Below, piece after piece: positions 1 to 54,023 of a stretch of 64,000 nt of DNA. Under the pieces are notes generated by a model that searched no databases, was not told where the DNA came from, and saw nothing but the letters and a program-made list of their open reading frames with translations. Position 1 is the first letter of the stretch. Each line of letters opens with the position of its first letter. This DNA is from Norana najaformis. Taxonomy: Eukaryota; Annelida; Clitellata; Crassiclitellata; Hormogastridae. Location: NCBI GenBank assembly GCA_964023275.1, contig OZ029913.1, forward strand, positions 47,123,976 through 47,187,975, read 5' to 3'. A program made the translations under genes and the position numbers.

Positions 1-211
1 GCAAATAGGCAGGGACAGGATGGGATGGATGGATGCAATGGGGGCAGAGGCGGATGGAGAGAGAAACGACAACGGGGAGAGGATGCTTAGCTACTGCATT
101 AGTAACAAACTGAAAGTCGGAGGCAGCATGTTCAAGCACAGAAACATTCACAAGGATACCTGGAGATCACCTGATGGAAGACCCACAAACCAAATCGACC
201 ATTTGTGCATC
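1..211 (+). mobile_element. RTE-type LINE fragment: apurinic endonuclease domain, first part
   Basis: A reading frame from about position 20 translates to the C-terminal half of an APE-type endonuclease of the kind found at the N-terminus of non-LTR retrotransposon proteins. Visible signatures are GERNDNGERML, GGSMFKHRNIHK, TWRSPDG and NQIDH, the last being part of the catalytic core of this family. The frame is cut at about 211, where BovB-like RTE sequence begins, and resumes at about 1097. The window edge truncates its 5' side. The domain would nick target DNA to prime reverse transcription; here it is a non-functional relic. Confidence 0.75.
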
Positions 212-1096
212 TCCGACTCTGTTTAACCTGTATGCAGAAAGAATAATGCGGCTGGCGGAATTGGATGGGGCGGAGGAAGGAATGAGGATAGCAGGGAGGA
301 TATTAAACAACTTAAGATACGCAGATGATACAACACTTCTGGCAGGGAAAAAGGATGATCTTGGTGAGCTTATACGTCGACTAAGGAGGGAAAGTGAAAA
401 GGCAGGGCTATACTTCAACATCAAAAAGACTAAGATCATGACGACGGCAGAATGGGATACTTTTGAGATGGATGGAGAAAACATAGAAGTTGTATCAAGT
501 TTCTCATTTCTGGGATCATTAATTGAGAGAGAGGGCAGGTGTGATGGAGAGGTGAGAAGGAGAATTGCACTAGGCAAAACTGCAATGCAGGGAATGGCAA
601 AGATATGGAAGGACAGACATGTGAGCATGAAGACAAAGACAGGTCTTGTCAAAGCAATGATCTTCCCCATAGTATTATATGGAAGCGAGACATGGACAAA
701 AACGAAAGGCTTGGAGGATAAAATCGCTGCGTGTGAAATGTGGATATGGAGGAAACTGTTGAGGATATCGTGGAGGGAAAAGAGAACAAATGAATCAGTA
801 CTACAGGAGATTGGTGACCTAAGAGGTGATCTGACATTGAATCAAAGAGCCAGCAGGCAGAAGATGATGTACTTTGGACATGTGATGCGCGCTGATGGAC
901 TAGAAAAGACGATGATGTTGGCGTGTGGAGAGGGAAAGAGGAGAAGAGGACGACCGAGAACTAGATGGATAGAAGAGGTACAGAGGAAGACAGCGATGAA
1001 TCTTGCACAGCTGAGGGATGTGGCAATGGACAGAAGAGCATGGAGAAGTCTGGTCATGACGGTCGCTAGGGTTCCAAGAACCGACGGCACAAGGTG
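212..1096 (+). mobile_element. BovB-like RTE LINE, 5'-truncated (RT C-terminal half)
   Basis: The fragment encodes the back half of a non-LTR reverse transcriptase. It starts inside the motif preceding LFNLYAERIM, carries the catalytic YADD at 318-329, then the thumb and C-terminal region with LYGSETWT, WRKLLRISW and RRGRPRTRW, and stops at 1095-1097. It ends in a short direct repeat, acaaggtg twice, which looks like the element's 3' tail. It is inserted in the endonuclease domain of another LINE. A near-identical copy lies at 52796-54023 on the other strand, with only two residue differences seen over about 300. This suggests a recently active family. The 5' truncation is typical of LINE integration. 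Confidence 0.8.
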
Positions 1097-1224
1097 ACAA
1101 GGTGAAGAGATGGGCGTCGTCTCTCCAGGACGTGCGCGTGTATAGAGGGGCCGATGCTGCTTCGGACCACTATCTGGTGGTCGCAACGATAAGACTGAAG
1201 CTGAAGAAACTGGCCAATAAATCT
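1097..1224 (+). mobile_element. RTE-type LINE fragment: endonuclease domain, continued
   Basis: This stretch reads as the end of the APE endonuclease interrupted at position 211: a KRWASSLQDVRVYRGAD stretch, then SDHYLVVA and RLKLKK. SDH followed by hydrophobics is the last conserved motif of these nucleases. Sequence similar to this LINE ends near 1224. The reverse transcriptase of a similar LINE resumes only at 4363, after 0.5 kb of unrelated sequence and the CMC-like transposon. Whether both halves come from one original copy is inference. Confidence 0.65.
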
Positions 1225-1739: not shown

Positions 1740-4362
1740 CACTGGCCGACACATAATTTGTTGCCTCAAATGTTAGAACTGTTTCTGGGTATATTTGACC
1801 TGCTGATTCCAGAAAAGGCACCAGTTTTCTCCCAGCAGGTCTAGTTCTCGAGATATAGAACATTATGCCATATACCAGTCCTTGCCTCTGCTCGCACATA
1901 AAACATAAGGCTATAGCTATAATTATGTAGTGCTCAATTTATTATGTGATACACTAAATAAACATAATAATACAAATACTTAAAAGAAAATGGTAGTACC
2001 TGAAACTGTACTTATATGATACCAAACAGAACAAGTTTGTTATAAAAATTTCAAGTCATTCGACACCGAAGAAGCTCCTTTTGTACGATTTCCGAGTGTG
2101 GCATCTGCCCGAACAATCGCGCATAATATTCCAGCAATAGTCTGCCATCATGTGTGCATCCCATCTTCCTTGATATCGATTTTCCATTGTTTTGATGTCT
2201 TGGTGAAATCTTTCACCTTGCTCTTCGCTGAAGTCACCAAGATTCTCTGGAAAGCGATCTAAGTGACTGTGGAGATAATGGACTTTAATGCTCATGTTGC
2301 AGCCAAGCTTGTTGAAATGAAGAAGCATATCCTCTACTAGTTGTGCATAATTGTCTGCCTTCTTGTTGCCAAGAAAATTTTTAGTTACAAGAACAAAGGA
2401 AGACCAGGCACAAGATTCGATTTCATTCATTGATGGTATGAAAAGTGGGTCATTCATAAGTTGCCTGATCTGTGGACCATCGAAGATTCCAGCCTTCAAT
2501 TTTTCCATTGTAATTCCTGGTAACTTGTGTACTATGTATTCGAAGCATGAACCTTCTTTATTCAAAGCCCTGACAAATTGTTTCATCAGGCCTAGCTTTA
2601 TATGTAGTGGTGGCAGTATGATCCTATCTCGTGCCACCAAAGATTCCTTGATTACATTTTGAGCTCCAACCACCATGTCTTTCCTCGAAGGCCAATCTTT
2701 TCTTGTCCAATGTTCATGCTTGGCTCTACTGTCCCAAAGACACAAAAAGCAGGGATACTTTGTGTAGCCACTTTGTTGACCAAGGAGGAAATTTACCATC
2801 TTCAAGTCTACACAAATTACCCATTGATGTTCTTTGTATTTTATCTTTTCCAGTACTAAAGAGATGGCATTGTACTCTTCCTTCATCCTGGTGGAGTGAC
2901 CGATTGGAATAGAACCAAATTTGTTGCCGTTATTTAAAAGCACACATTTCAGACTACGTTTTGAACTGTCGATAAAAAGACGCCACTCATCTGGGCTGTA
3001 ATCCGACAGACCAATTTTCTTCAATAAGTTGCTGATGTCATTACAGAATACTAGGTTGTTGTCTTCGGTAAAAAATGGCAGCAAATCCTTTTCTCTGTTT
3101 CTATAAATTGTAATTTTCGTTCCAGGCTGAAGTGCATTCTTTTCCTTTAGTCTGGACGCAAGCAATTCAGAGGACTCTTTGGAAAGATTTAAGTCCCTGA
3201 TCAGATCACTCAACTCTTTTTGGTCAAAACGTTCACTGTGTGAAGTTGATTGGAAATCACTGTCACTGCCCCCACTTTCTTCACTTTCGTCATCTTGTCC
3301 GATATTGGACATGCAAGTCTCATCGTCTGAGAGCTGAGGTAGTTCGCGAAAAGGTGGAACTGGTACAATATCCGAATGCGGAACAGGTCTCCTGGCTGAA
3401 GGTATATCAGGGTAAGACAACTTGTGACGATTATTTCGATTGATGCCTATGATATTAACCATACAAAAGTAACAGTCGTCGAAGTGGTTTATCTGTTCCC
3501 TCCAAACCATCGGTACACCAAATTTCAGGCAGCTTCTCTTTCCAATTGTCCAGTGGCGCAATTGTTCAATACAAGTTTTGCATACTGTATGAGGAGCCCA
3601 TTGCTTATCTTGATCTCCAAGTTTGACACCAAAATAACCTACATATGCTCTTTTTACAAACTCAGAAATCGGTTTCCTGTTTGCTTTTAGTGTGTATTCC
3701 CCACAAATGTAGCAGAATATGTCTGGATGGTTAATGCAGCTCCGTCTGGAAGTAGCCATAACCTTAAGGATGTTCGCATCTGAGGAATTAAATGACTAAC
3801 CTAAAAAATAGTAAGAACATGTAGTTATTTAATGCTCACATTCACAGATTGTTCTTGCGACCAACTCTTAATATGCCCTAAGACGACTGCGGCTGCTCTA
3901 GCTTTCAGGAGGCGGTTTATATAGGCTATAAATGCTGACTTCAGCATAATCTATTTACATAGTTCGAAACCATGAAACGCTGTATAAGCACAAATAAATT
4001 CTAAATGAGGCCATGAATTTAGTGCTGAGTAAGCTGTAGGCTACGGAATAGTTATTTCGTTGAATCAGCAATATCTCAGCACGCGGCAAGATATGCTGAT
4101 TTTACATTATAAGGATGTAGCCATTATATGAATCAGCAAGAATTAAATTAGCCATAAATAAAGCTTATTATGACATTTTAGTTTTGCCAAAGACATCGTT
4201 TAAAGAGTGGACTGGGTTTTCTTTACAAAATCGACGATATCTCAGAAACTAGACCTGATGCACTCAATCCAATGACATTTTCTGAATCAGCGCCCAAAAT
4301 TACCCCAAGAACAGGTCTAAAACCGAAGGCAACAAGAAAAAAATTTTTTCTGTTGGCCAGTG
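1740..4362 (-). mobile_element. CMC-like (CACTA-type) DNA transposon, copy 1
   Basis: The element is bounded by CACTGGCCGACA at 1740-1751 and the inverted TGTTGGCCAGTG at 4351-4362, 11 of 12 bases pairing as terminal inverted repeats. Both ends also carry subterminal copies of a GGTCTAGTT, then CGAGATAT or TGAGATAT phrase next to CTGATTC. It contains one full-length gene at 2056-3759 on minus. It is the mirror image of the element at 13439-16061 and differs from it at only a few flanking positions, so both moved recently. The ends begin with CACTG, as in CACTA/CMC elements. Its outer flanks, tat on the left and tta on the right, do not match as a target duplication, unlike copy 2. Confidence 0.8.
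2056..3759 (-). CDS. CMC-like transposase, 567 aa, copy 1
   Basis: An uninterrupted 567-residue protein. The N-terminus has paired cysteines C16-x2-C19 and C60-x2-C63, a spacing like ZAD-type treble-clef zinc fingers, then a further CYFC at 96-99. An acidic, serine-rich linker follows at 145-175. The rest fits the RNase H-like pattern described for CMC transposases: a first aspartate in FIDSSK (D264), a second in VDLK (D318), the CxxC insertion PCFLC (C337, C340), LH at 385-386, and a glutamate in SEEQGERFHQD (E513 or E516). It would cut and join the element's ends in the nucleus. The translation is identical to 14042-15745. Family assignment comes from motif order, not a search. The start is the first ATG, followed by MATSRRSC. 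Confidence 0.75.
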   Translation of the reverse strand: MATSRRSCINHPDIFCYICGEYTLKANRKPISEFVKRAYVGYFGVKLGDQDKQWAPHTVCKTCIEQLRHWTIGKRSCLKFGVPMVWREQINHFDDCYFCMVNIIGINRNNRHKLSYPDIPSARRPVPHSDIVPVPPFRELPQLSDDETCMSNIGQDDESEESGGSDSDFQSTSHSERFDQKELSDLIRDLNLSKESSELLASRLKEKNALQPGTKITIYRNREKDLLPFFTEDNNLVFCNDISNLLKKIGLSDYSPDEWRLFIDSSKRSLKCVLLNNGNKFGSIPIGHSTRMKEEYNAISLVLEKIKYKEHQWVICVDLKMVNFLLGQQSGYTKYPCFLCLWDSRAKHEHWTRKDWPSRKDMVVGAQNVIKESLVARDRIILPPLHIKLGLMKQFVRALNKEGSCFEYIVHKLPGITMEKLKAGIFDGPQIRQLMNDPLFIPSMNEIESCAWSSFVLVTKNFLGNKKADNYAQLVEDMLLHFNKLGCNMSIKVHYLHSHLDRFPENLGDFSEEQGERFHQDIKTMENRYQGRWDAHMMADYCWNIMRDCSGRCHTRKSYKRSFFGVE

Positions 4363-5185
4363 TTATCCGGCAAGGTCACGCAACGGGCGCCTATCCGAGA
4401 TGACAACGGAAATTCACTCAGAACGTACGAGGAGCAGGCAAGGAGATGGAAGGAACACTTCAGCGCTGTGCTCAACTGCCAATAACCAGAAACAGTGCAC
4501 GACTTCAGCCTAGACGCGCCCCTACAAACAATAGATGCCGATTTAGGAGAGATCACGGAAGGTGAAGTTGAAGGAGTAATAAACAGGCTAAGAAATGGAA
4601 AATCTGCAGGCATAGACGGCATACAGGCGGAGTTACTGAAGAATGGAGGAAGGGAGATGGTCACCAGGATCACAAGCTGTGCAACATGGTATGGAACACA
4701 GAAGAGGTACCACGAGACTGGCGAGATGGAATAATTATACCTATTCCCAAAAAGGGTGATGCCAGAGATTGTAATAACTGGAGGGGGATAACATTACTCT
4801 CGGTACCTGGAAAGGTGATGGCAACAATAATACTAAACAGGGTTCAGGAAGCAGTTGACAACATGCTGAGACAACAGCAGGGAGGATTTAGAAAGAATAG
4901 ATCATGCTGTGACCAAATTTTTGCGCTACGACAAATCATCGAAAAGTGTGTGGCGGGAAATACCAGGATGCTTGTCAACTTCATAGACTTCAGGAAGGCC
5001 TTCGACAGTGTGCACAGGCCGACAGTATGGAGCATACTCAGACACTATGGCATACCAGAAAAAATCATCGACATAATAAAAAACATGTACCAAGAAAGCA
5101 GATGCACAGTAAGGTCAGATGGGAAACTAGGGGACTGGTTCCATATTGTCACCGGGGTGCGCCAAGGGTGTGTACTGTCACCGCT
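4363..5185 (+). mobile_element. RTE-type LINE fragment: linker and reverse transcriptase N-terminal half
   Basis: Sequence next to the transposon end reads as the linker between endonuclease and RT, with EEQARRWKEHFSAVLN, then RT motifs: GKSAGIDGIQAELLK, a PIPKKGDARDCNNWRGI phrase, GGFRKNRSCCDQI, and motif A in FIDFRKAFDSVHR. It ends abruptly after GVRQGCVLSPL, just before the YxDD region, where Polinton sequence begins. Two frame breaks are visible, a stop near 4483 and a shift near 4690. The reading frame runs on by chance into the Polinton polymerase. A LINE 3' part of related sequence on the far side of the Polinton (25711-26464) could be the other half. Confidence 0.75.
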
Positions 5186-8100
5186 GAACAAGGCAGGAAA
5201 TCGTATACACATTCATGGTTTTCGTAAAGAAACTCTTCCAGCCAGCATCAGCCGCGAGGGAGAGAACCTCTTAAATACCATCATCCCAAAAGAGAGTGAA
5301 GAGAAAGGCCGCCGTACCATCACCTGGAAATTCTTTCGAGATCTCGATCAGTCAACCGTTGAACGCTTCATGACTAAGATCGAGCGGCTGCAAACGGCAT
5401 TCTATCTGTACTTCAGTTACACCCACCGGATCAAGCACCAGACCGATAAATTTATGTTATGGCAAAAAAATCTCGGTCGCAGTGAGGGAGAGATAACAAA
5501 TCTGAACGCTGCAGCCACATTCTTGACTCAAAAGGAGGCAATCCGCCTAGAGGGTGAGGACTTCGATATGGCTAACAGCGAATGGAACTTTACCGCTTGG
5601 GTTCAGGTAGAAGTGAAGGCCGTCCTGTCGAACCAACCACTGTTGGGCAACGGGCAACTGCCGGACTGGCTGCGCAAGAAGAAGGGTATACGCGCCCTAG
5701 ATGGCTTCGATGACAACCTCTGCTTATTCCGATGTCTAGCCGTCTTTCGAAGAACGCATCCAGAGCGTTGTACAGGAAAAGCCATACAACTGGCCCGGGA
5801 ATATTACACAGTCGATGTAAAAGAATGCCCAAAATTCGCTTTGGAGCAGCTCAAGACGTCGAAGACACTTTCAAGCTCGGTGTCCGCGTTTACGAGCCAA
5901 ACGAGGAAGGTACCTGGCGCCTATTGAGACAGCCCGCCCACTATGACGTCTTTGGAGGTCAGCCGATGACGATCGGGTTCTACAACGATCACGCCTTCCT
6001 CATAACCAACATCACCAAAGTAGCTCAACAATACGCTTGCGCCCAGTGCAATCAACAGTTCACTAAGGCTACAAATCTTCAGCGTCATGCAGACCGCTGC
6101 ACGAAGGGGATAACTAAAATATGTTGTCCCGGAGAAGTCGTTGAGAGGCCTCAGTCAGCATATGAAAAGGCCTTCTTTCCCAAGGACAATGCGAGCAAAA
6201 GTTCGATCGACTGGCCCGAGTACGAAGCCGAAAAAGGGGCTTCACATTCATCACGCTTACTGCGGGCACGGTGGTGAGCGCTGGATCGTCGGTGCACCTG
6301 TGGATGGTTACGAACCAACAACCAGAATGGTCTTCCAATATCACGGCTGTCACTTCCACGGCTGTCCGGAGCATTGTAAACAGCAGAACGCGCGAGAGTT
6401 GTTGAAGACGCGGGCTAGAGACCGTAAAATCCGCGAAGCCGGTTGTACCCTGGTTGTGGCCTGGCAATGTAAGTGTCCCGGTTACAAACCAACACAACTC
6501 GAGATATTGTCAATTTGTCTATCCACACGCCCTCGTATTCGATTTCGAAGCCTACATCGATAAGACGAAGGCTTATAAGCCGACCGCCGATCTCACTTTC
6601 GAAAACACTCACGTGCCGATCTCGGTCTCGATCGGTGACACCCTCGACGCTAAACCGACCCATCTCTGCGACAGAGAACCAAAAGCCTTGATAGCCGCCT
6701 TTGTGATAGAACTCCAGCGAAGAGCCGCCGTCTTACAAGCAGATGTTCAGAAGCGTTTCCTCCACACCGACATTCACTTGTTGCATAAGAAGCAACAAAA
6801 GAAAATCCGTGACTGGTGTAGTCAAGTACCCGTGATAGGTTTCAACTCGGGCAAGTATGACCTAAACCTCATCAAGGAGCGCTTCGTGGAACAGCTTGCA
6901 GATACCTGTACAAAGGTGAAGGTCGGCGCCAACGGGTCGAAGACCATGTTCATAGTAACGCCGGATTTTAAGTTCCTCGATGTGATGAACTATTTATCAC
7001 CAGGCACTTCTTATGATTAGTGGGTGAAAGCCTATGATTGTAAGCAGAGCAAGTCCTGGTTCCCTTACGAATGGTTCGACCGGCCAGACAAGCTCGACTA
7101 TCCAGGGCTGCCAGACTATAACGCATGGTAATCGCGGCAGAAGGCCAGCTATCTGCTAACGCTGCAGGAATGGAGGGCGTGCAGGCTCTTCCGTGCAAAG
7201 GGCATGTCAACCTTTGCCGACTGGCTGCGCCACTACAACGACCTAAATGTCGGTCCCTTCCTCGAGGCATTGCAGAAAATGAAAACATTCTATGGCGACC
7301 GAGGTATCGACATCTGTAAGGATGCGGCGAGTCTGCCCGGAGTCTCCATACAGTACCTCCTTCGGGGTACCGTCCAAAACAAGTTATATGCGCCAGGCAA
7401 AGCGGCTTATACACTACTGAAAGCAGCGGTAACTGGCGGGCCCTCCATCGTGTTCACCCGTTATCACGAAGCCGGGGTCACGAATATCAGGTCGCACCAG
7501 TATGTGGACCCGAAACCCTGCAAACGAGTCTTGGGGTATGACGCCAACGCCCTATACCTCAGTACCATGCTACAGGATATGCCGTGTGGTAAAGAGCAGG
7601 TGCTCGATTACAATGACCCCGTGAAGGCCGCGAGTATGGTATGACGAGCAGTCCTAAATGGTAGACTGTTTGGCTTCGTGAAGTGTAAGATCACCACACC
7701 GAAACACCTGTGGGAAAAATTCGAAGAAATGGCGCCGATCTTTCTCAATAGGGTGGTACCTGAAAAGGCTATCCCGTTCGATATGCAGGATTATCTGAAG
7801 CGTACTGGACGGAAACGCACCGCAGCTCCTAAGCTGATGGGGGTGCTCGAGGCCGACGAGATCTTGCTCTATACCCCACTGCTGCGGTGGTACCTCGAAC
7901 ATGGGCTAGAGTTGCAGGCCGTCTACACCACAATCGCGTACAGCCCCGAAAAATGTATGGAGTGGTTCGTCCACGAAGTTACCGGGGCGCGGCGCACGGG
8001 CGATGTTGACAAAACTAAGGCCCTGCTCGCGGAGATATTCAAGCTCCTCGGCACCAGTGGCTACGGCAAGCTGATCGAGACGCTGGAACGCCACACCAAC

Positions 8101-8828
8101 GTTAGTTATACCAAGAACGAGAAAGCCGTCGACAAGGCATTACGATCGGCCTGGTTCGATAACCTCACCGAAATCGGGAGTGCGTACGAGATCTCGAGCC
8201 GAAAACCCCGCGTAGCTATAAACAGGCCCTTCCAGGTAGGTATTGCTGTCTACCAACTGGCAAAGCTGAGGATACTGGAGTTCTACCACGACTTCCTCGA
8301 CCGCTTTGTCGACCGCCGAGACTTCGAGCTTATACAGATGGACACCGACAGTCTGTACTTGGCCCTGAGCGCTAACAAGCTCTATGATGTTATAAGGCCC
8401 GAGCTAGCCGCCGAGTTCGCGAACTGTAGGCAAGACTGGCTGGCGTGGACACCTTCAGCAATCGAACGCCGGGCCTGTTCAAGCTCGAGTTCGAAGGGCA
8501 CCGCGCTATCGCGCTCTGCAGCAAGAGTTACTTCGTAGACAGTGATAAAAAGAGCAAAAACTCAAGCAAGGGTATGTCGGCGAGTCTCAATAATCTATTG
8601 TGGGGCAGGTACAAGGCGACACTGGAAGGTGATATAGACCATGCCGAGAATCGTGGGTTCAGACTACGAGATGGTAAGATGACTATGTACGCTCAAGCTA
8701 AACTAGGGTTGAGTGCCTATTACGACAAGCGGCGTGTCTTGCCGGATGGAATACACACCGAGCCTATCGAATACGCCACGATGACAATGGACGAGTATCG
8801 CGACATACTATTCAACGACAGCGAATAA
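5186..8828 (+). pseudogene. PolB: Polinton protein-primed DNA polymerase B, broken
   Basis: About 1,210 codons, the usual size, which would copy the element by protein priming. In order: an N-terminal region with LPDWLRKKKG and a DDNLCLFRC motif; a C2HC zinc finger from YACAQC (6032-6100); a CGHGGERW to FQYHGCHFHGCP region resembling Vsr-like nucleases; exonuclease motif I FDFEAY (6538-6555) and motif II GFNSGKYDLN (6838-6867); polymerase motif A GYDANALYL (7534-7560), motif B KLLGTSGYGK (8041-8070) and motif C MDTDS (8338-8352). It is inactive as read: frame changes near 5880, 6232, 6500 and 8440, and stops at 7018-7020, 7129-7131 and 7642-7644. Motif B has TSGYG where NSxYG is common. It converges on the integrase with a 17-base overlap. 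The frame upstream of 5186 belongs to a LINE. Confidence 0.9.
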
Positions 8829-9813
8829 GAACTCGATCGGGTGGTAGCTCTGTCCCAGTAGGTACAATAAGTAGCTCTTCATGCACGAATCCGCGAGTCG
8901 GCCCGTCGACTAACTGGTAGAGAGCAGGATGTCCTGGCTGTCGGACCCCATCTCGAATGCTGTGCACAGTCAGCGACCAAACAGGGTCGGTGGCGCGACG
9001 GCGGCCACCTTCAAGCTCGCCAGGTTGATATAGATAGCGAACAAGATCGGACGACGAAAGCAAAGGCTCTTCGAGACCAATAACTCGGCCAGCTGGAAGA
9101 GAGGGCTTATGCGCAACAGAAACCGACTTGATGGCATCAGCAGGTTTTTTGCCAGTCAACCGAGTCGGCTCATCGTTCAGCGCAGCCACAACATCAAGCA
9201 AAGCGCGCACCCACTCTGCGCTACGCTCTGAAGAAGCCATCAGAAGTTCTTGAGCATACTGCGCCCCAAATAGCCTTTCGGCCAGAGTTCGGTTAAAGCG
9301 CTCAACGATACCTTGTTCACGATGGACGTCCACGCGACCGCGCCGCACCTGCACGTTGTGCTTGGCCAGCTGCTGATTCACAGCGCCCATAAATTCGCGC
9401 CCAGGATCAACCTGCAGAAGATGAGGCCAAGTGAGAGGACCCTGTTTATAGATGCGGCCAAGAGCAGCAGCCACTTCAGCTGCACTCTTGTCTGTCAAAG
9501 GCTCGGCCTCCTTGTAGCGCGAGGCGACATCAACCACAGTTAAAGTATATTTATAGATCTTATGGCCAACCCGATCGTGCTGTAGAAATAGTAAATCGGC
9601 CTGGTGCACCGCATTCGGCCTATCTTCATCGAACATCGGCCGCGGAATATGGTGAGGCGCGGACAAGTAGATCTGCCACACAGCCTGCATCTTAAGCCAA
9701 GAGCGAACATCTGCCTCCGAAACATTCGCGGCTGCGGCCAGCTTCTTAACCGCTGCTTGTCCGCGCCAGTAGCCGCGAGGCGAGAAGTAGATAGATGCTA
9801 GCTTACCGTCCAT
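8812..9813 (-). CDS. INT: Polinton integrase (retroviral-type, rve), 333 aa
   Basis: An open frame with no stops or shifts, unusual in this element. It encodes an RNase H-fold integrase that would insert the element's DNA. Catalytic residues are D73 in HQADLLF, D136 in LQVDPGREFMG and E171 in QGIVERFNRTL, with 34 residues between the last two, close to the D-35-E of the family. The stretch DVASRYKEAEPL matches the core beta strand region. A helical N-terminal region precedes the core, and about 130 residues follow, ending in a basic, beta-rich tail where Polinton integrases often carry a chromodomain-like fold. I cannot confirm that domain. It starts at an ATG followed by DGKLASIYF. It converges with the polymerase and is followed upstream by a non-coding gap. 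Confidence 0.88.
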   Translation of the reverse strand: MDGKLASIYFSPRGYWRGQAAVKKLAAAANVSEADVRSWLKMQAVWQIYLSAPHHIPRPMFDEDRPNAVHQADLLFLQHDRVGHKIYKYTLTVVDVASRYKEAEPLTDKSAAEVAAALGRIYKQGPLTWPHLLQVDPGREFMGAVNQQLAKHNVQVRRGRVDVHREQGIVERFNRTLAERLFGAQYAQELLMASSERSAEWVRALLDVVAALNDEPTRLTGKKPADAIKSVSVAHKPSLPAGRVIGLEEPLLSSSDLVRYLYQPGELEGGRRRATDPVWSLTVHSIRDGVRQPGHPALYQLVDGPTRGFVHEELLIVPTGTELPPDRVLIRCR

Positions 9814-11158
9814 CTCGAATACATTCTAGAAGTGAAATAAATCTCCAGCAGGCTTCAGCTGTACTGTAGACTGAATCTATATATGTTCTCGCTATGTTAA
9901 TCAATTTCTGTTGATTTTGCTATTGTATGAACTGTGCGTATAATTGACATGGTTATGCGTATATTAGAATAAGCGTTTGTGTTGACTAACGTGATTACTC
10001 ACTTAAAATACATGGCCGGCTTAGGGCGTTTAAACTAATAAAAATAGCGAGGCCAGCATAGGCTCTAAAAATATACTAATTACGGGGAACAATGAATGGG
10101 TTTCTGAACTAATTTTACGTGTGCTCAACGTGGATGTTGATGGATTGTTTTATTCGCAATCTGCCAAAGTTTGCGAGTCACTACGAAGGAAATTTCAAAC
10201 TGATGCTTCGATTGCCAGCCAATCGGGATTTTACTTGGGGGATTTTCGACCAATGGCGACACGTTGCCATTGGAAGTCGTCAGCCAATGAGGGGGCGCAG
10301 TGGACGTAACTCCTTATCCTTAGTAAACAAGCGAGCAGACGACGATGTCAACGATGGACTCTGAAATCGCTGCAAATGTTGGTGAAAGTTGCAGACGACA
10401 CTTTCGGCCAACCGTTTGACGATGTCGATTCGCGGTGAAAACCGTTGAAGAAGTTCAGTTCACGGCTGGATTTTAGGCAGGAAGGTACTCGTTACGATTC
10501 AGCGTGACTCCGAGAAATAAGTGATCAGTTGCGGACTTGTCAAGTCGAACTGTATTCTCGAATAGTGAGCATATAAAGGCTCATGTATTGCGGGTTCTTC
10601 ACCTGTGTTTCGGTTGCGAACTGACAAAGTGTTCGTCAAGAAACTAACGTCAGGAAGTTGTGGATTAATTCCATGTAAGTACGTTGAAACGGACTTAGCG
10701 GCGCGAGTTGAAAGTCTTCGACTATACAGTGCAACCACATCTCGTCAAGGAACATTCCTTCGGACGATTACGATCGAATCGCGTGGATTCTAATCCTTGA
10801 ACTGCAAGGAACTCGCTAAAGTACATACAACGAGAGACATTCAACCGATGGTCTACTAGGTATGTGGGCGTGGTGAAAAGAATCGTTTGTGCAGAGACAA
10901 CTAGTGGTGAGTGACAATCCAACCATACTACGTCGATGCAAACTCACTGCAACTCACAGTGAAACTGTTTCAGACTTCATCAGAGTCAGTACACAGAGGT
11001 AAAATGGCCATCCAAGCTGGTGGGTGGGTAGAACTATAGATTTAGGCTCGATAAGAAGCTGGCCTTAATTAAGCATATATAAACTATATATAATACATTG
11101 ATTGATTTGTAACAAATGACTTTGTTCATTCTTATTCAATTAGACATTATAATACAAG
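9814..11158. other. Non-coding gap inside the Polinton
   Basis: About 1.3 kb with no frame I trust; the two overlapping frames near 10119-10364 show no family signature. The sequence is AT-rich at its left and right ends. A TATA-like cataTAAAggc at about 10569 is followed some 100 bases later by a splice-donor-like ATGTAAGTA at 10671, but no downstream exon can be recognised. It may be an unrelated insertion in the Polinton, a regulatory region, or an internalised terminal repeat. No inverted match to it was found at the right edge by eye. Confidence 0.4.
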
Positions 11159-11215
11159 ATGGTAGTGGAAAAGTACGAGCTATCATTACAATTTCCGCTA
11201 GATATTGCATGTTGA
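11159..11215 (+). pseudogene. Short start of a decayed Polinton gene
   Basis: An ATG at 11159 opens an 18-codon frame beginning MVVEKYELSLQF and ending in TGA at about 11213-11215. It lies directly after attaTAATAcaag, the same type of box seen before two other Polinton genes, which is the main reason to list it. No continuation is convincing in other frames. It may be the remnant of a longer gene. Confidence 0.25.
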
Positions 11216-11364
11216 TTTGAGTCTGACCTATAATTATCATATCAGGAGACTAAACCCCAATTAACATGTGTATCTACCTACAGCCTAAACACAAGCTTGT
11301 AGGTACCATGAGGTAATGTAAAGTGACTGCCATCTATAGTCACCAGATCTAGACAAGGGAGCAT

Positions 11365-11625
11365 TTAGAAAAAGGGGTTACATGTACAAGCTGGAAGCTG
11401 TCCGGTTATCGGCCGGAAATCAGTAGGCCCGGAAAGGACTCTACATGCAAAGTCATTCAAAGCGCCTGGTGTTACGAGCCAGAACTCGAAACAGCGGCTC
11501 GCGATATTACCAAAGTCCCATAGAGGATGTTCCTTAGAGACTACTTCCTCTCGTCGTGTGTGGTTTTGTATCGCCCACATCGCGGACCAAACGTCCTTCA
11601 CTAGCTCTTCGGGTGGTAGTGTCAT
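11365..11625 (-). CDS. Small hypothetical Polinton protein, 86 aa
   Basis: An open frame starting at an ATG (MTLPPEELVKDVWSAM) and rich in tryptophan and phenylalanine, with WDFGNIASRCFEFW in the middle and a cysteine-containing end. No membrane segment or known motif is visible. It is divergent from the gene at 11686, with about 60 bases between them that contain TATAATA at 11643-11651. That arrangement, and codon use like the neighbouring genes, support a real small gene. I do not recognise its family. Confidence 0.45.
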   Translation of the reverse strand: MTLPPEELVKDVWSAMWAIQNHTRREEVVSKEHPLWDFGNIASRCFEFWLVTPGALNDFACRVLSGPTDFRPITGQLPACTCNPFF

Positions 11626-11685
11626 CGTCTCGCGAACGAAGTCTATAATACCCGATTAAAGATTTGGAATATAATTCCTAAAACA
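11626..11685. promoter_or_regulatory. Divergent intergenic region with TATAATA box
   Basis: Sixty bases between two divergently transcribed Polinton genes contain tcTATAATAcccg and ggaaTATAATtcc. The same core occurs in the 44-base divergent gap at 20220-20263 and just before 11159. Promoter function is inferred from position and recurrence. Confidence 0.4.
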
Positions 11686-13018
11686 ATGCCAATTCCACAG
11701 CATTTGAAGTACAACGCAACAGCATACTACCGCCTCGGCACCGCCTTCGACTACACGAAGGTCGCGACCGCGCTTCAGTCGCAGGACGTGTATGTAAGCG
11801 ATACAAGCTCCTTCAAGACGACTTAGTTTGATCTAACGCAGAGCTACATTCTTCCGCACATCACGACTCAAGCCATCATCGACGCTTGGAACAGTAACCC
11901 CATGCAGTTTTGGCAGAACCAGCTGCAGTTCGCACTTTGGTGCGCCACGGCGGGTTGTGGTGTATCGGTGAAAGAGCACCTTTTACCTGACGAAACAATG
12001 CCGGTGCTGGCTCGTTCGTTGTTTCACTTCCATATCTACTATCAGACCAGACGTATTCTTGCCGAGATGAAGTGTCCGCTTCCGACCCGCGACACCTGGA
12101 ATGCCTTCGATAATGGTATCGACCATCATGCATATCAAGCAATCTGTGGTGAATTTGGAGTCGACTATAATCAGGCAGCGACCGCGTGTCACCTCAGCGA
12201 CATGCAGATGCCGTCAAACGGTCTGGGTAATACATTCGTGGAATGGGACCGAAGCGGCAACAATGGTAACCGCTACTGGACTACATATGGAAGCTACAGA
12301 CCTGGTATTGACTCATTCAGCGACAACTTGGATAGCGAGCGCGGCCGGCTCGATTATCTCAGTCAAGACTACAACGGTGACACAATCCCCCGGTCAGACA
12401 TCTCATATGGTTTTGTCTGGAGCATGCTCGACAGAAGTCAAGGGTTCACGCGTGCAGGTGTGGAACGGATCAACGACTCGGTGCGCGCATACGCTTGGGC
12501 AATCCTTGGCGCGCAGGGTCAGACCCGCACCTCGGTGCTAGGCGTGGGGCCCGCATTCGACGCCCAGAAGCAGTTCGCAGCTAACGTGGAAACGAAGATT
12601 TATGCCTCCGACGACCTCCCGAAAAGCATATCGCAGTATCAGGATGTTTTACAATACGCTAGGTCAAAACTCGACTATGTGTTGGGTGGTGAGTTGTATA
12701 TGGTCCCAAGCAACACGGATCTGCGAGTTGGTACGATTGCGGGGTACAACAATGAGATCGTGGTTGCCACAGACGACATGAACATCGGCACGAAAGATGG
12801 TATTAACACCACAAAACTGCCGCCTGCGCCACCAGTAGAAAAAGCGAAGGTAGATCCACCATCCACCAAAAACGAGGACCCAGGCTTCGCACCACCCCCA
12901 AAAAAGAGGACACCACCAAGAAGGAGTACTCACCACCTGGTGATCATGAAAGCATAAAAACAGCAATCACGTTCGCGGCTATTGGTGCAGGTCTGGTGTA
13001 TTATATGTATTATTATTA
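11686..13018 (+). pseudogene. Conserved Polinton virion-type protein with C-terminal membrane segment, broken
   Basis: The gene starts at ATG 11686 (MPIPQHLKYN) and would give about 440 residues. A TAG interrupts it near 11824, after FKTT. The long middle part reads HFHIYYQTRRILAEM, GLGNTFVEWD and VRAYAWAILGAQGQTRTS, a layout I associate with a conserved but poorly characterised Polinton gene. It is followed by a proline- and lysine-rich linker. A shift in the C/A runs near 12896-12906 moves the true C-terminus to another frame, which ends in a hydrophobic ITFAAIGAGLVYYMYYY segment. A virion or assembly role is inference from its place among capsid genes. It converges on the minus-strand gene at 13022 with 3 bases between. 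Confidence 0.6.
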
Positions 13019-13435
13019 AAACTAAAGATACTTGAAAGCGAGCCATCCGCTGAGGCCGATGCCACCAGCGAGGAAGATGAGCTCGTACTTTTTTTGCTCC
13101 TCGCTGGGCTGATAGAAATTGGCGAGCGTCGGCTCGTCCCCAACATCTGGAACGCCTTTCTGCTTCTGTTCGTCGCCGCCGGTTACCGAGTAGTATAGGC
13201 GCATCGCCTCGTTCACGTCGGAATACACCTTATCTACATGTATTGCCCGGCGCAGCTGCTCGTTGAGGTAGTCTAGTCTAGCCTGTCGCCGTTGTGCCAA
13301 CTCAGCCGAAGCGCGCTAAGCTCCTCTATAGCTCTATTGTGTCGAGCCGTCTCCTCCGACGCCCCTGCTTGTTAACGACACCGTAGATCGCATTCCCTCC
13401 AATAAAGGCAACCGCATTGGCTACAGCGGAGCCGA

Positions 13436-13438
13436 TAA
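13436..13438. repeat. Target site duplication TAA (left copy)
   Basis: TAA directly precedes the transposon end CACTGGCC and is repeated at 16062-16064 after the other end. Restoring a single copy leaves the interrupted Polinton gene in frame, which supports a 3-bp duplication, as in CACTA/CMC elements. Confidence 0.75.
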
Positions 13439-16061
13439 CACTGGCCAACAGAAAATTTTTTTTTTCTTGTTGCCTTCGGTTTTAGACCTGTTCTTGGGGT
13501 AATTTTGGGCGCTGATTCAGAAATGTCATTGGATTGAGTGCATCAGGTCTAGTTTCTGAGATATCGTCGATTTTGTAAAGAAAACCCAGTCCACTCTTTA
13601 AACGATGTCTTTGGCAAAACTAAAATGTCATAATAAGCTTTATTTATGGCTAATTTAATTCTTGCTGATTCATATAATGCCTACATCCTTATAATGTAAA
13701 ATCAGCATATCTTGCCGCGTGCTGAGATATTGCTGATTCAACGAAATAACTATTCCGTAGCCTACAGCTTACTCAGCACTAAATTCATGGCCTCATTTAG
13801 AATTTATTTGTGCTTATACAGCGTTTCATGGTTTCGAACTATGTAAATAGATTATGCTGAAGTCAGCATTTATAGCCTATATAAACCGCCTCCTGAAAGC
13901 TAGAGCAGCCGCAGTCGTCTTAGGGCATATTAAGAGTTGGTCGCAAGAACAATCTGTGAATGTGAGCATTAAATAACTACATGTTCTTACTATTTTTTAG
14001 GTTAGTCATTTAATTCCTCAGATGCGAACATCCTTAAGGTTATGGCTACTTCCAGACGGAGCTGCATTAACCATCCAGACATATTCTGCTACATTTGTGG
14101 GGAATACACACTAAAAGCAAACAGGAAACCGATTTCTGAGTTTGTAAAAAGAGCATATGTAGGTTATTTTGGTGTCAAACTTGGAGATCAAGATAAGCAA
14201 TGGGCTCCTCATACAGTATGCAAAACTTGTATTGAACAATTGCGCCACTGGACAATTGGAAAGAGAAGCTGCCTGAAATTTGGTGTACCGATGGTTTGGA
14301 GGGAACAGATAAACCACTTCGACGACTGTTACTTTTGTATGGTTAATATCATAGGCATCAATCGAAATAATCGTCACAAGTTGTCTTACCCTGATATACC
14401 TTCAGCCAGGAGACCTGTTCCGCATTCGGATATTGTACCAGTTCCACCTTTTCGCGAACTACCTCAGCTCTCAGACGATGAGACTTGCATGTCCAATATC
14501 GGACAAGATGACGAAAGTGAAGAAAGTGGGGGCAGTGACAGTGATTTCCAATCAACTTCACACAGTGAACGTTTTGACCAAAAAGAGTTGAGTGATCTGA
14601 TCAGGGACTTAAATCTTTCCAAAGAGTCCTCTGAATTGCTTGCGTCCAGACTAAAGGAAAAGAATGCACTTCAGCCTGGAACGAAAATTACAATTTATAG
14701 AAACAGAGAAAAGGATTTGCTGCCATTTTTTACCGAAGACAACAACCTAGTATTCTGTAATGACATCAGCAACTTATTGAAGAAAATTGGTCTGTCGGAT
14801 TACAGCCCAGATGAGTGGCGTCTTTTTATCGACAGTTCAAAACGTAGTCTGAAATGTGTGCTTTTAAATAACGGCAACAAATTTGGTTCTATTCCAATCG
14901 GTCACTCCACCAGGATGAAGGAAGAGTACAATGCCATCTCTTTAGTACTGGAAAAGATAAAATACAAAGAACATCAATGGGTAATTTGTGTAGACTTGAA
15001 GATGGTAAATTTCCTCCTTGGTCAACAAAGTGGCTACACAAAGTATCCCTGCTTTTTGTGTCTTTGGGACAGTAGAGCCAAGCATGAACATTGGACAAGA
15101 AAAGATTGGCCTTCGAGGAAAGACATGGTGGTTGGAGCTCAAAATGTAATCAAGGAATCTTTGGTGGCACGAGATAGGATCATACTGCCACCACTACATA
15201 TAAAGCTAGGCCTGATGAAACAATTTGTCAGGGCTTTGAATAAAGAAGGTTCATGCTTCGAATACATAGTACACAAGTTACCAGGAATTACAATGGAAAA
15301 ATTGAAGGCTGGAATCTTCGATGGTCCACAGATCAGGCAACTTATGAATGACCCACTTTTCATACCATCAATGAATGAAATCGAATCTTGTGCCTGGTCT
15401 TCCTTTGTTCTTGTAACTAAAAATTTTCTTGGCAACAAGAAGGCAGACAATTATGCACAACTAGTAGAGGATATGCTTCTTCATTTCAACAAGCTTGGCT
15501 GCAACATGAGCATTAAAGTCCATTATCTCCACAGTCACTTAGATCGCTTTCCAGAGAATCTTGGTGACTTCAGCGAAGAGCAAGGTGAAAGATTTCACCA
15601 AGACATCAAAACAATGGAAAATCGATATCAAGGAAGATGGGATGCACACATGATGGCAGACTATTGCTGGAATATTATGCGCGATTGTTCGGGCAGATGC
15701 CACACTCGGAAATCGTACAAAAGGAGCTTCTTCGGTGTCGAATGACTTGAAATTTTTATAACAAACTTGTTCTGTTTGGTATCATATAAGTACAGTTTCA
15801 GGTACTACCATTTTCTTTTAAGTATTTGTATTATTATGTTTATTTAGTGTATCACATAATAAATTGAGCACTACATAATTATAGCTATAGCCTTATGTTT
15901 TATGGGCGAGCAGAGGCAAGGACTGGTATATGGCATAATGTTCTATATCTCGAAAACTAGACCTGCTGGGAGAAAACTGGTGCCTTTTCTGGAATCAGCA
16001 GGTCAAATATACCAAGAAACAGTTCTAACATTTGAGGCAACAAATTATGTGTTGGCCAGTG
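13439..16061 (+). mobile_element. CMC-like (CACTA-type) DNA transposon, copy 2
   Basis: Bounded by CACTGGCCAACA at 13439-13450 and TGTTGGCCAGTG at 16050-16061, a perfect 12-base terminal inverted repeat, with TAA duplicated on both sides. Long AT-rich flanks inside the ends carry repeated GCTGATTCA phrases near 13663-13740 and shared subterminal phrases GGTCTAGTT with GAGATAT at both ends, probable transposase binding sites. One intact gene lies at 14042-15745. It is the inverted twin of 1740-4362. It is inserted inside a small membrane gene of the Polinton. Confidence 0.85.
14042..15745 (+). CDS. CMC-like transposase, 567 aa, copy 2
   Basis: Residue-for-residue identical to the protein at 2056-3759, where its domains are described: N-terminal cysteine pairs (C16/C19, C60/C63), acidic linker, D264, D318, C337-x2-C340, L385-H386 and E513 or E516. 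The gene starts 603 bases inside the left end and stops 316 bases before the right end. It has no intron and no interruption, so this copy could be autonomous. Identity to copy 1 over 1.7 kb of coding sequence points to very recent duplication, gene conversion between the two copies, or an assembly artefact. Confidence 0.78.
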   Translation: MATSRRSCINHPDIFCYICGEYTLKANRKPISEFVKRAYVGYFGVKLGDQDKQWAPHTVCKTCIEQLRHWTIGKRSCLKFGVPMVWREQINHFDDCYFCMVNIIGINRNNRHKLSYPDIPSARRPVPHSDIVPVPPFRELPQLSDDETCMSNIGQDDESEESGGSDSDFQSTSHSERFDQKELSDLIRDLNLSKESSELLASRLKEKNALQPGTKITIYRNREKDLLPFFTEDNNLVFCNDISNLLKKIGLSDYSPDEWRLFIDSSKRSLKCVLLNNGNKFGSIPIGHSTRMKEEYNAISLVLEKIKYKEHQWVICVDLKMVNFLLGQQSGYTKYPCFLCLWDSRAKHEHWTRKDWPSRKDMVVGAQNVIKESLVARDRIILPPLHIKLGLMKQFVRALNKEGSCFEYIVHKLPGITMEKLKAGIFDGPQIRQLMNDPLFIPSMNEIESCAWSSFVLVTKNFLGNKKADNYAQLVEDMLLHFNKLGCNMSIKVHYLHSHLDRFPENLGDFSEEQGERFHQDIKTMENRYQGRWDAHMMADYCWNIMRDCSGRCHTRKSYKRSFFGVE

Positions 16062-16117
16062 TAATCATACCCACAGCTGCAGCCATTTTACATATACACT
16101 TAGTGTGGGCATTCAAC

Positions 16118-44310: not shown

Positions 44311-44734
44311 TGTACAGAACATTACCAACATGCCTATTTCATGTTAACTGATACTGCGATCTTAAATCATTTTGAAGATAGTGCTGGGCTTTGTGCCTAC
44401 AAGGCACTTGAAAACGTTTTATTTTCCGGCATTATTGATGAGTATTACCGGACTTGTTACCCTAACATATCAATATCAAAACTGTGAAACCAATGTGATC
44501 ACTTGTAAAAATATAATTGCAACATATCTAAGTATTTTTTTATTAAAATTGCAGTTAATAAACATTTCTTTATCATAATTAAAGTGAATTTATGAACAAA
44601 ATTTTGTGTTAATTGGTAGTCTATCAAAGTACATATGATGAAATATTCTGTGGAACTACCAAACATCTAACAGTATCAAGATAATGTCATTTATGCATAC
44701 ATCATTATATATTTTGACAGATTTTCTGTTCATA

Positions 44735-45085
44735 AGATGAAAATTTTGTTGTTACAGTCTTCCATACTGAATCGTCCAGCTGGTACTGACGTGCACTATC
44801 ACTGTGTGTCGAAGTGCGGGCACAAAATGAAGGGCATGTTGGAATGGAACCCAGCATATGTCATCATGTCTTGGCCAAGTCAGACGATAGCTTCCTCTTC
44901 TCTGCGTACTTGTCATGAGTTTTACGACTATATCTTCTCCTTCGTCTGACCGGTCTGTTGTCACCCCAGTGTACCACATTTGGTCATGTACAGTGTATAT
45001 TACTGCCACAAACTGCCCTGGTTTATAGGTAGTGGCATCCAGTCTGTCCTCAGTTGCTTGCTGTGATTCCTCTGTCACATCCATC
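44735..45085 (-). pseudogene. Transposase-like C-terminal domain, inverted copy 1
   Basis: Reads EESQQATEDRLDATTY, PGQFVAVIYTVHDQMWYTG, DIVVKLMTSTQRRGSY and WPRHDDICWVPFQHAL. The pattern GxFVAVxY, then WYxGxV, then CWV, suggests a small SH3/Tudor-like barrel at the end of a larger protein. Its inverted twin is at 46055-46412, about 95% alike at protein level. Upstream on minus, separated by a SINE, lies another part of the same kind of protein (45360-45688). Confidence 0.55.
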
Positions 45086-45689: not shown

Positions 45690-46412
45690 TCTTTGCAACA
45701 TCACATCGGAAAAGTCTCCATGATGGTATTGGGGGAAACTGTGAAGCACCTGGCTACATGTGCTAGTCGGCAAGCCACCATCGAGAATCAGATTTAAACC
45801 AACATGCTTTATATGATTGTAAATGAAAACATTAAAGGTATCCGTTTCTTCAGGATTACAAAAGCCTCAAGTGAACAGCATGTAGAGGACTTCAAGTTGG
45901 AAAAATGGTACAGTGCAGCCAAGACAATTTCTGGAACCCCTAGCCAACATGCGTTTTTCCAAGTGTCAGAGTTTGATAATGATGTGAAGAATATCTTTGG
46001 ACTCATTTAGAACTGTTGCAACAGTTACTGACATTGACGATTGTAACGAACTGGAATATGTCATAGAGGAATCACAGCAAGCAACTGAGGACAGACTGGA
46101 TGCCACTACCTATGAAACAGGGCAGTTTGTGGCAGTAATATACACTGTACATGACCAAATGTGGTACACTGGGGTGACAACAGACCGGTCAGACGAAGGA
46201 GAAGATATAGTTGTCAAATTCATGACAAGTACACAGAGAAGGGGAAGCTGTCGTCTGACTTGGCCAAGACATGATGACATATGCTGGGTTCCATTCCAAC
46301 ATGCCCTTCATTTTGTGCCCGCACTACGAATACACAGTGATAGTGCACGTCAGTACCAGTTGGACGATTCAGTATGGAAGACAAAATTTTCATCTTATGA
46401 ACAGAAAATCTG
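45690..46412 (+). pseudogene. Transposase-like protein, C-terminal half, inverted copy 2
   Basis: On plus: HFFATSHRKS and DGIGG (a conserved catalytic-site-like stretch), then IKGIRFFRITKASSEQH, then YSAAKTISGTPSQHAFF, and the SH3-like end GQFVAVIYTVHDQMWYTG to DDICWVPFQHAL. Stops near 45795 and 46007 interrupt it. It is the inverse of 44735-45085 over its last 350 bases. Together the two arms form a long inverted repeat around unlike centres, probably two copies of one element in opposite orientations. Confidence 0.5.
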
Positions 46413-46630
46413 AATAATAGTAAATGATGAAGAGCTGGAACAGATCAGGCAGTTCTGCTACTTAGGAAGCATGAATGATTACAAAATGTCAAAATGAAAT
46501 TTAAAAAGCATAGTGTTGGGGAAAGATGCCTTCATAAAGAGGAAAGAATTAATGAGTGGAGGACTGAACAGGAAACTAAAGAAGAGAATGGTCAAAACAT
46601 CGATATGAAGCGTGGTCTTATGTGGATCGG
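46405..46630 (+). mobile_element. RTE-type LINE C-terminal fragment
   Basis: Reads VNDEELEQIRQFCYLGSM, LGKDAFIKRKELMSG, LNRKLKKRMVKT. Short and with stops. It directly follows the transposase-like arm. Confidence 0.6.
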
Positions 46631-52784: not shown

Positions 52785-52795
52785 AGAGCTACCAC
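52785..52795. repeat. 11-bp target site duplication AGAGCTACCAC (left)
   Basis: AGAGCTACCAC at 52785-52795 is repeated at 54024-54034, exactly flanking the BovB-like element. Confidence 0.85.
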
Positions 52796-54023
52796 ACCTT
52801 GTCACCTTGTGCCGTCGGTTCTTGGAACCCTAGCGACCGTCATGACCAGACTTCTCCAAGCTCTTCTGTCCATTGCCACATCCCTCAGCTGTGCAAGATT
52901 CATCGCTGTCTTCCTCTGTACCTCTTCTATCCATCTAATTCTCGGTCGTCCTCTTCTCCTCTTTCCCTCTCCACACGCCAACATCATCGTCTTTTCTAGT
53001 CCATCAGCGCGCATCACATGTCCAAAGTACATCATCTTCTGCCTGCTGGCTCTTTGATTCAATGTCAGATCACCTCTTAGGTCACCAATCTCCTGTAGTA
53101 CTGATTCATTTGTTCTCTTTTCCCTCCACGATATCCTCAAGAGTTTCCTCCATATCCACATTTCACACGCAGCGATTTTATCCTCCAAGCCTTTCGTTTT
53201 TGTCCATGTCTCGCTTCCATATAATACTATGGGGAAGATCATTGCTTTGACAAGACCTGTCTTTGTCTTCATGCTCACATGTCTGTCCTTCCATATCTTT
53301 GCCATTCCCTGCATTGCAGTTTTGCCTAGTGCAATTCTCCTTCTCACCTCTCCATCACACCTGCCCTCTCTCTCAATTAATGATCCCAGAAATGAGAAAC
53401 TTGATACAACTTCTATGTTTTCTCCATCCATCTCAAAAGTATCCCATTCTGCCGTCGTCATGATCTTAGTCTTTTTGATGTTGAAGTATAGCCCTGCCTT
53501 TTCACTTTCCCTCCTTAGTCGACGTATAAGCTCACCAAGATCATCCTTTTTCCCTGCCAGAAGTGTTGTATCATCTGCGTATCTTAAGTTGTTTAATATC
53601 CTCCCTGCTATCCTCACTCCTTCCTCCGCCCCATCCAATTCCGCCAGCCGCATTATTCTTTCTGCATACAGGTTAAACAGAGTCGGAGATAGTATGCAAC
53701 CCTGCCTCACCCCCTTGCCAATTCCAATCTTCTCAGTGTCTCCATGTTCCGTCTTGATTACTGCCTGTTGATTCTCGTATAGGCTCTTGAGAAGCATGAT
53801 GAGATGCTTTGGTATTCCCATCTCTTCCAAGGTTTTCCACATTAGTGAATGATTTATACAATCAAAGGCTTTGCTGTAATCTATGAAACATAAATGTACC
53901 TCCTGCCCATATTCTCGTTGTCTCTCCATCAGCCACCTTACATTCGCAATATGATCTCGTGTTCCTCGCGCCTTCCTAAAGCCTGCCTGATTTACTGGGA
54001 GCTCTCTTTCCACTGTACTCTAC
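52796..54023 (-). mobile_element. BovB-like RTE LINE, 5'-truncated, open RT frame
   Basis: On minus a 403-residue open frame (to 52802) starts inside the RT fingers with a QAGFRKARGTRDHIANVRW stretch, motif A in CFIDYSKAFDCINH, then GVRQGCILSPTLFNLYAE, catalytic NLRYADDTTLL, KTKIMTTAEW, and the C-terminal RRRGRPRIRWIEEV. The endonuclease is missing through 5' truncation. The 3' end repeats acaaggtg. An 11-bp duplication flanks it. It differs from 212-1096 by only two residues in the shared part. RT would work only if supplied with an intact element's N-terminus. Confidence 0.88.

Follow-up and report, generated by a model that had tools for sequence, protein, structure and literature searches.

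How did two nearly identical transposons come to lie in opposite orientations, 9,076 bp apart, in the genome of the annelid Norana najaformis? Both sit in a 64,000-nucleotide stretch (hereafter the window; C1:47123976-47187975, where C1 is contig OZ029913.1 of assembly GCA_964023275.1), and we searched the whole home assembly (608,420,607 bases in 17 contigs) for their relatives. A first-pass annotation of the window had placed the inverted copies at 1740-4362 on the minus strand and 13439-16061 on the plus strand, each encoding the same 567-residue protein, and both the coordinates and the open reading frames (ORFs) proved exact. Our results indicate that the two copies, A and B, are probably products of short-range transposition from a single, recent local source, within a young, high-copy family of Chapaev3 type. 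The features of the pair are as follows.

1740..4362, minus strand: copy A, Chapaev3-type element by its features, 2,623 bp
13439..16061, plus strand: copy B, Chapaev3-type element by its features, 2,623 bp
2056..3759, minus strand: 567-amino-acid putative transposase ORF of A, a single open frame, 100% identical to the query protein
14042..15745, plus strand: 567-amino-acid putative transposase ORF of B, same protein as A
4351..4362, minus strand: 5' terminal inverted repeat (TIR) of A, CACTGGCCAACA
1740..1751, minus strand: 3' TIR of A, TGTCGGCCAGTG, one mismatch to the family end
13439..13450, plus strand: 5' TIR of B, CACTGGCCAACA
16050..16061, plus strand: 3' TIR of B, TGTTGGCCAGTG
13436..13438, plus strand: left TAA target-site duplication (TSD) of B, preceded by A
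16062..16064, plus strand: right TAA TSD of B, followed by T
13878..13884, plus strand (3917-3923 in A): putative TATA-box-like TATATAA, 164 bp upstream of the B ATG
15858..15863, plus strand (1938-1943 in A): putative polyadenylation-like signal AATAAA, 113 bp past the B stop

Imperfect inverted repeats, about 125 bp long and 68% identical, make up the ends of the element, and the 567-amino-acid protein is most simply read as its transposase. A and B differ by seven events, at columns 18, 83, 243, 2468, 2517, 2577 and 2616 of a 2,624-column alignment. Five are substitutions and two are run-length sites; three fall within the opening 243 columns and four within the closing 157, with no difference between columns 243 and 2468. 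The annotation had described copies differing at a few flanking bases, whereas all seven events are inside the element, near its ends. Relative to the family majority, 242G, 2467T, 2516G and 2615C are found only in A, and 2576A and a run-length change at 82 only in B, which polarises four substitutions onto A and one onto B.

The transposase search scored 77 genomic matches out of 6,420 first-look candidates, and all 77 were full-length, stop-free and 99-100% identical in protein. Searching with the first 122 bp of the element returned 665 first-look 5' ends, and the 40 of these that were scored were all 99-100% identical; by coordinates 36 of the 40 were not among the 77, which is therefore a lower bound. 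These counts suggest a family of hundreds of copies. We aligned 63 of the 77 (6 of them picked by position, as near pairs, rather than by sequence), leaving 14 unread. The aligned copies diverge from their majority by a mean of 0.229%, so the burst is young, and the majority protein is the 567-amino-acid protein of the window. A 3-bp TSD was present in 36 of the 45 copies with both ends aligned (18 of the 63, lacking one aligned end, were left out of these counts); it was TWA in 26 of the 36, with A as the base before it in 32 and T as the base after it in 33. The annotation's suggestion of an active family is supported for the recent past by the 77 intact scored copies and the 0.23% mean divergence among the 63, and youth together with intactness points to activity today; where a check for old, divergent copies might have undone it, the genome shows young, near-identical ones. 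The ratio of nonsynonymous to synonymous ORF variants was 57/64, against 4.0 expected, and is not used as evidence of selection since copies were chosen by protein score. The 77 positions are also clustered, with 3 pairs closer than 20 kb (0.22 expected) and 10 closer than 200 kb (2.1 expected), figures that include a segmental duplication on C11 and approximated lengths for five contigs.

Four markers are common to A and B. One of them, 1290T, was counted across the genome, and the other three are known from the copies read.

14728, plus strand (3073 in A): 1290T, silent; recurs in three other copies without the other markers
14920, plus strand (2881 in A): 1482G, silent; 2 of 63 aligned copies and 0 of 3 further copies
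15691, plus strand (2110 in A): 2253G, silent; common to A, B and the copy at C1:47275786
13655..13656, plus strand: site of a 1-bp deletion after element position 217, common to A and B

Among the copies read, the 217 deletion, 1290T and 1482G occur together in A and B only (the copy at C1:47868561 lacks the 217 site because of its own 15-bp deletion), and the copy at C1:47275786, which shares 2253G, lies 138 kb from B. The simplest history is thus (C1:47275786, (A, B)). 1290T was found at five places, A and B included, and is recurrent, since its three other carriers lack the remaining markers.

Sharing of this kind proved to depend on distance across the family. Our test counted variants carried by 2-4 copies, per pair of copies, among 62 copies (the 63 minus one member of the C11 segmental duplication); all sharing tests skipped the poly-A/T run (element positions 12-26), and the three further 1290T carriers were kept out of this one. 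Rare variants were shared by 2/2 pairs closer than 20 kb, 5/7 at 20-200 kb, 3/28 at 0.2-2 Mb, 3/126 farther apart on the same contig and 28/1,728 unlinked pairs. Below 200 kb, 7/9 pairs share, whereas permutation gave 0.19 such pairs on average and never more than 4 (0/20,000 permutations as high); without A and B the figure is 4/6 (P = 5e-5). No similar flanks were seen in the other near sharing pairs (about 100 bp per side compared for two C16 copies, 98 and 269 bp for the third). Two C4 copies 1.27 Mb apart have four variants in common and no private substitution outside the poly-A/T run. An unplanned check agreed with local origin: two 1290T carriers on C17, found by the 1290T pattern alone (L073 and L074, 1.3 Mb apart), have 14 departures in common, 1290T among them, and no difference over their overlap, while their adjoining bases differ (12 bp compared). 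Both are further diverged, and single-base indels interrupt their reading frames; a transposase supplied in trans by a different copy would thus have been required for them to move. The pair at C11:17977309/17984201, a candidate for the best local pair with 7 common variants, was rejected: its flanks are identical on both sides, which makes it a segmental duplication. Its members (L069, C11:17976890-17979712; L070, C11:17983782-17986604) are 6.9 kb apart, with identical flanks of 98 and 100 bp and elements free of base differences outside the poly-A/T run, as either a recent tandem duplication or a duplication made by the assembly would produce.

Taken with the markers, these data favour the local source named above. 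In the history we propose, transposase would cleave at the CAC/GTG ends and target ATWAT sites for insertion; in this region of C1, a copy with 2253G would have given rise to one that gained the 217 deletion, 1290T and 1482G, and that marker-bearing copy would then have yielded A and B through hops of about 10-140 kb, with each acquiring its own changes afterwards. For the family at large, we lean towards the view that local hopping is now the main route by which this Chapaev3 element, whose transposase would belong to the RAG1-like class, is spreading, and that it leaves nested, intact sister lineages within kilobases to about 1.3 Mb and moves even frameshifted copies in trans.

Several points weigh against this history. 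No 3-bp duplication was seen in the flanks of copy A, which is one of 9 such copies among the 45. The distance test was devised once shared variants had already been noticed, and several of the sharing pairs below 200 kb have just one variant in common; because 1290T recurs in three unrelated copies, little weight can be given to any such single shared site, for instance 327G in the C16 trio or 2253G in the third C1 copy. Some linked pairs have no rare variant in common: one on C11 at 85 kb, one on C4 at 200 kb and 25/28 at 0.2-2 Mb, among which are the pairs that A and B form with three further C1 copies. The clustering by itself could reflect regions prone to insertion. The last two points, the placement of the A/B differences and the size of the family, each speak for a different origin of the pair. 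Directly outside the A 3' end (1669-1739), where its duplication is missing, lie a 28-bp tandem repeat (1669-1722) and an AT-rich run.

The placement of the differences is what we would expect had A and B inserted separately and had their middle, at least 2.2 kb, been made identical by gene conversion between inverted neighbours. A clean middle with differences in the ends only has P = 4e-5 if the seven events are placed uniformly; when positions are sampled from 163 singletons that other copies carry, P = 0.0034 for all five substitutions in the ends, which pure descent does not predict. The shared 217 deletion, however, lies outside the clean tract, beyond 242G of A, so conversion of that tract alone fails to explain the sharing. 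Moreover, the C4 and C17 pairs share variants over 1.27 and 1.3 Mb, a distance at which conversion would be less likely than transposition. We consider this origin unlikely, if still the most serious competitor to a local source. The annotation had proposed that conversion keeps the copies alike; it is not needed, but the gap test (P = 0.0034) leaves room for later conversion of one copy's middle by the other. Purifying selection as the cause of the clean middle was rejected by comparing end sites (5/400) with four-fold and non-coding middle sites (0/711; Fisher P = 0.006, with zones set after the data were seen).

The size of the family bears on whether A and B instead came over a long range from a single distant copy carrying all the shared markers. 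The family is larger than the set of copies read, and 1482G, 2253G and the 217 deletion were counted in that set only. Against such a source, 2253G is carried by a copy 138 kb away, relatedness still decays with distance when A and B are taken out of the family set, and the three other 1290T carriers lack the remaining markers, which together make a distant source improbable.

We find it very improbable that the assembly duplicated one copy, as the annotation had allowed, or filled both middles from one consensus. The A/B differences are indeed confined to the outer 243 and 157 bp, as they would be with short reads anchored in unique flanks, and the C11 pair with identical flanks could be an assembly duplication. 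Yet the assembly puts 608 Mb into 17 contigs, the window is free of N, the flanks of A and B are unrelated, B has its own TSD, each copy has private changes, a third copy has one shared marker and the same pattern recurs in other clusters. Duplication of one block, element included, in inverted orientation has next to no credibility: both inner flanks end in GATAA, but these 5 adjoining bases, 3 of them the TAA target, are all that is common, and the 600-bp flanks show no similarity, so inverted duplication of the flanks was rejected. The annotation had further imagined the pair driving inversions or composite transposition of the left half of a Polinton between the copies, and this found no support. 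The outer flanks (..AAATAT and TAATCA..; TAT/TAA) show no direct duplication of the kind a composite transposon would leave, and comparing swapped flanks does not discriminate an inversion, since both inner flanks end in TAA.

The class of the element was assigned from its features, and on these A and B are Chapaev3-type cut-and-paste elements of the CMC megafamily. The ends are 5'-CAC...GTG-3'; a 3-bp TWA duplication lies between A and T in B (A-TAA..TAA-T) and in the family, though not in copy A; the C(2)C, LH and H(4)H motifs are present; and the transposase is encoded by a single exon, as in most members, with most of 28 aligned relatives co-linear from the N-terminus. The features given for the CMC/CMCT group in the available part of PMC12730594 (D, D, E; C(2)C and H(3-4)H between the second D and E; CA..TG ends; 2-5 bp duplications) were all found, with E513 as the presumed E. 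The annotation's label of CMC-like with an intact transposase thus holds for ends, motifs and frame, and is narrowed to Chapaev3. Transib elements duplicate 5 bp of target, and no 5-bp match was found at the A or B flanks. The EnSpm transposase model is absent from the 18 Pfam families matched by any of 29 members, which is weak evidence.

Conserved residues of the B transposase are D264, D318, C337xxC340, L385H386, H494x4H499 and E513; across 29 aligned sequences C337/C340, L385/H386 and H499 are invariant and H494 nearly so. These residues would have catalytic and motif roles, with E513, from its invariance, the candidate third catalytic residue and L385H386 probably the LH motif of the Chapaev3 paper; the protein is predicted to adopt a RAG1/Transib-type fold. 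The transposase had no relative among viral contigs or GTDB contigs and no match in the phage search or in PHROGs; Pfam gave sub-threshold matches only (zf-AD best), and a PDB sequence search gave two chance-level rows (E 2.2) when the single protein was the query and no match when the alignment was. Its relatives from the lizard Rhineura and from Hydra (P0032 and P0057) are 77% identical to each other, above the 64% between Hydra and the beetle Onthophagus, a likeness that would fit horizontal transfer or contamination.

The rest of the window is not uniformly old and broken, as the annotation had it: one pair of long interspersed nuclear element (LINE) sequences is almost identical, and the integrase between A and B is one open frame.

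4363..13438: segment between the copies, with a LINE fragment, broken PolB frames (plus), the integrase (minus) and a further ORF (plus)
8812-9813, minus strand: presumed Polinton integrase, one open frame, 333 amino acids; best homologues cover it over 99-100%
209-1104 (plus) and 52795-53690 (minus): inverted LINE (reverse transcriptase) pair, 99.55% identical over 896 bp

The LINE pair, with 4 differences spread along its length and frames in pieces, is a second young element in the window; a further inverted pair (44700-45080 and 46058-46429) is 92% identical over 382 bp. We take 4363-13438 to be a Polinton remnant with its presumed PolB part split across several frames, and both the PolB and the Polinton names follow the match to locus L001 rather than Pfam. 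GTDB contigs held 8 integrase loci, one of them close (L001, 76%) and with the same convergent integrase/PolB order, which bears on the order inside the segment and not across B; no relative was found spanning the position of B. According to the available part of PMC8097293, vertebrate Mavericks carry their two modules on opposite strands, in most cases oriented inwards. Neither the integrase nor the ORF at 11902-12957 had a relative in viral contigs. Integrase relatives at 66-70% occur in metagenome-assembled genomes labelled Thiodiazotropha and Sedimenticola; these may be host sequences binned with their symbionts.

The kind of element is already known. The available part of PMC4079192 describes the Chapaev3 transposons Merrow, Garfield and Conan, gives Merrow as 2,451-2,455 bp encoding 78 + 484 amino acids, and reports most Chapaev3 transposons, Merrow and Garfield excepted, as single-exon. 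The window element resembles those described there in its 5'-CAC/GTG-3' ends, TWA between A and T, C(2)C + LH + H(4)H motifs, DDE type, similar length and relatives in distant animals; unlike Merrow and Garfield it has one exon, 2,623 bp and 567 amino acids, and unlike the members described it has at least 77 intact, near-identical copies whose relatedness falls with distance. From RAG1, Transib and ProtoRAG it differs by its 3-bp rather than 5-bp duplications. Galileo copies at Drosophila inversions, as far as PMC2775673 was available, are likewise inverted neighbouring DNA transposon copies, though here no exchanged target duplications are shown. Titles and abstract openings of the papers that our searches listed held no report of local hopping by Chapaev elements, and the term does not occur in the available part of the Chapaev3 survey PMC4079192; among the papers listed, PMC7913693 and PMC12239620 each contain the two words once. 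The record of local spread is thus the interesting part: so many intact, near-identical copies in one genome would be a ready test system for Chapaev3, with its predicted RAG1/Transib fold, and the copies differ enough to act as markers, so that a single assembly is enough to trace in what order, and how far, the element hopped. If this reading is true, the genome records how such elements spread.
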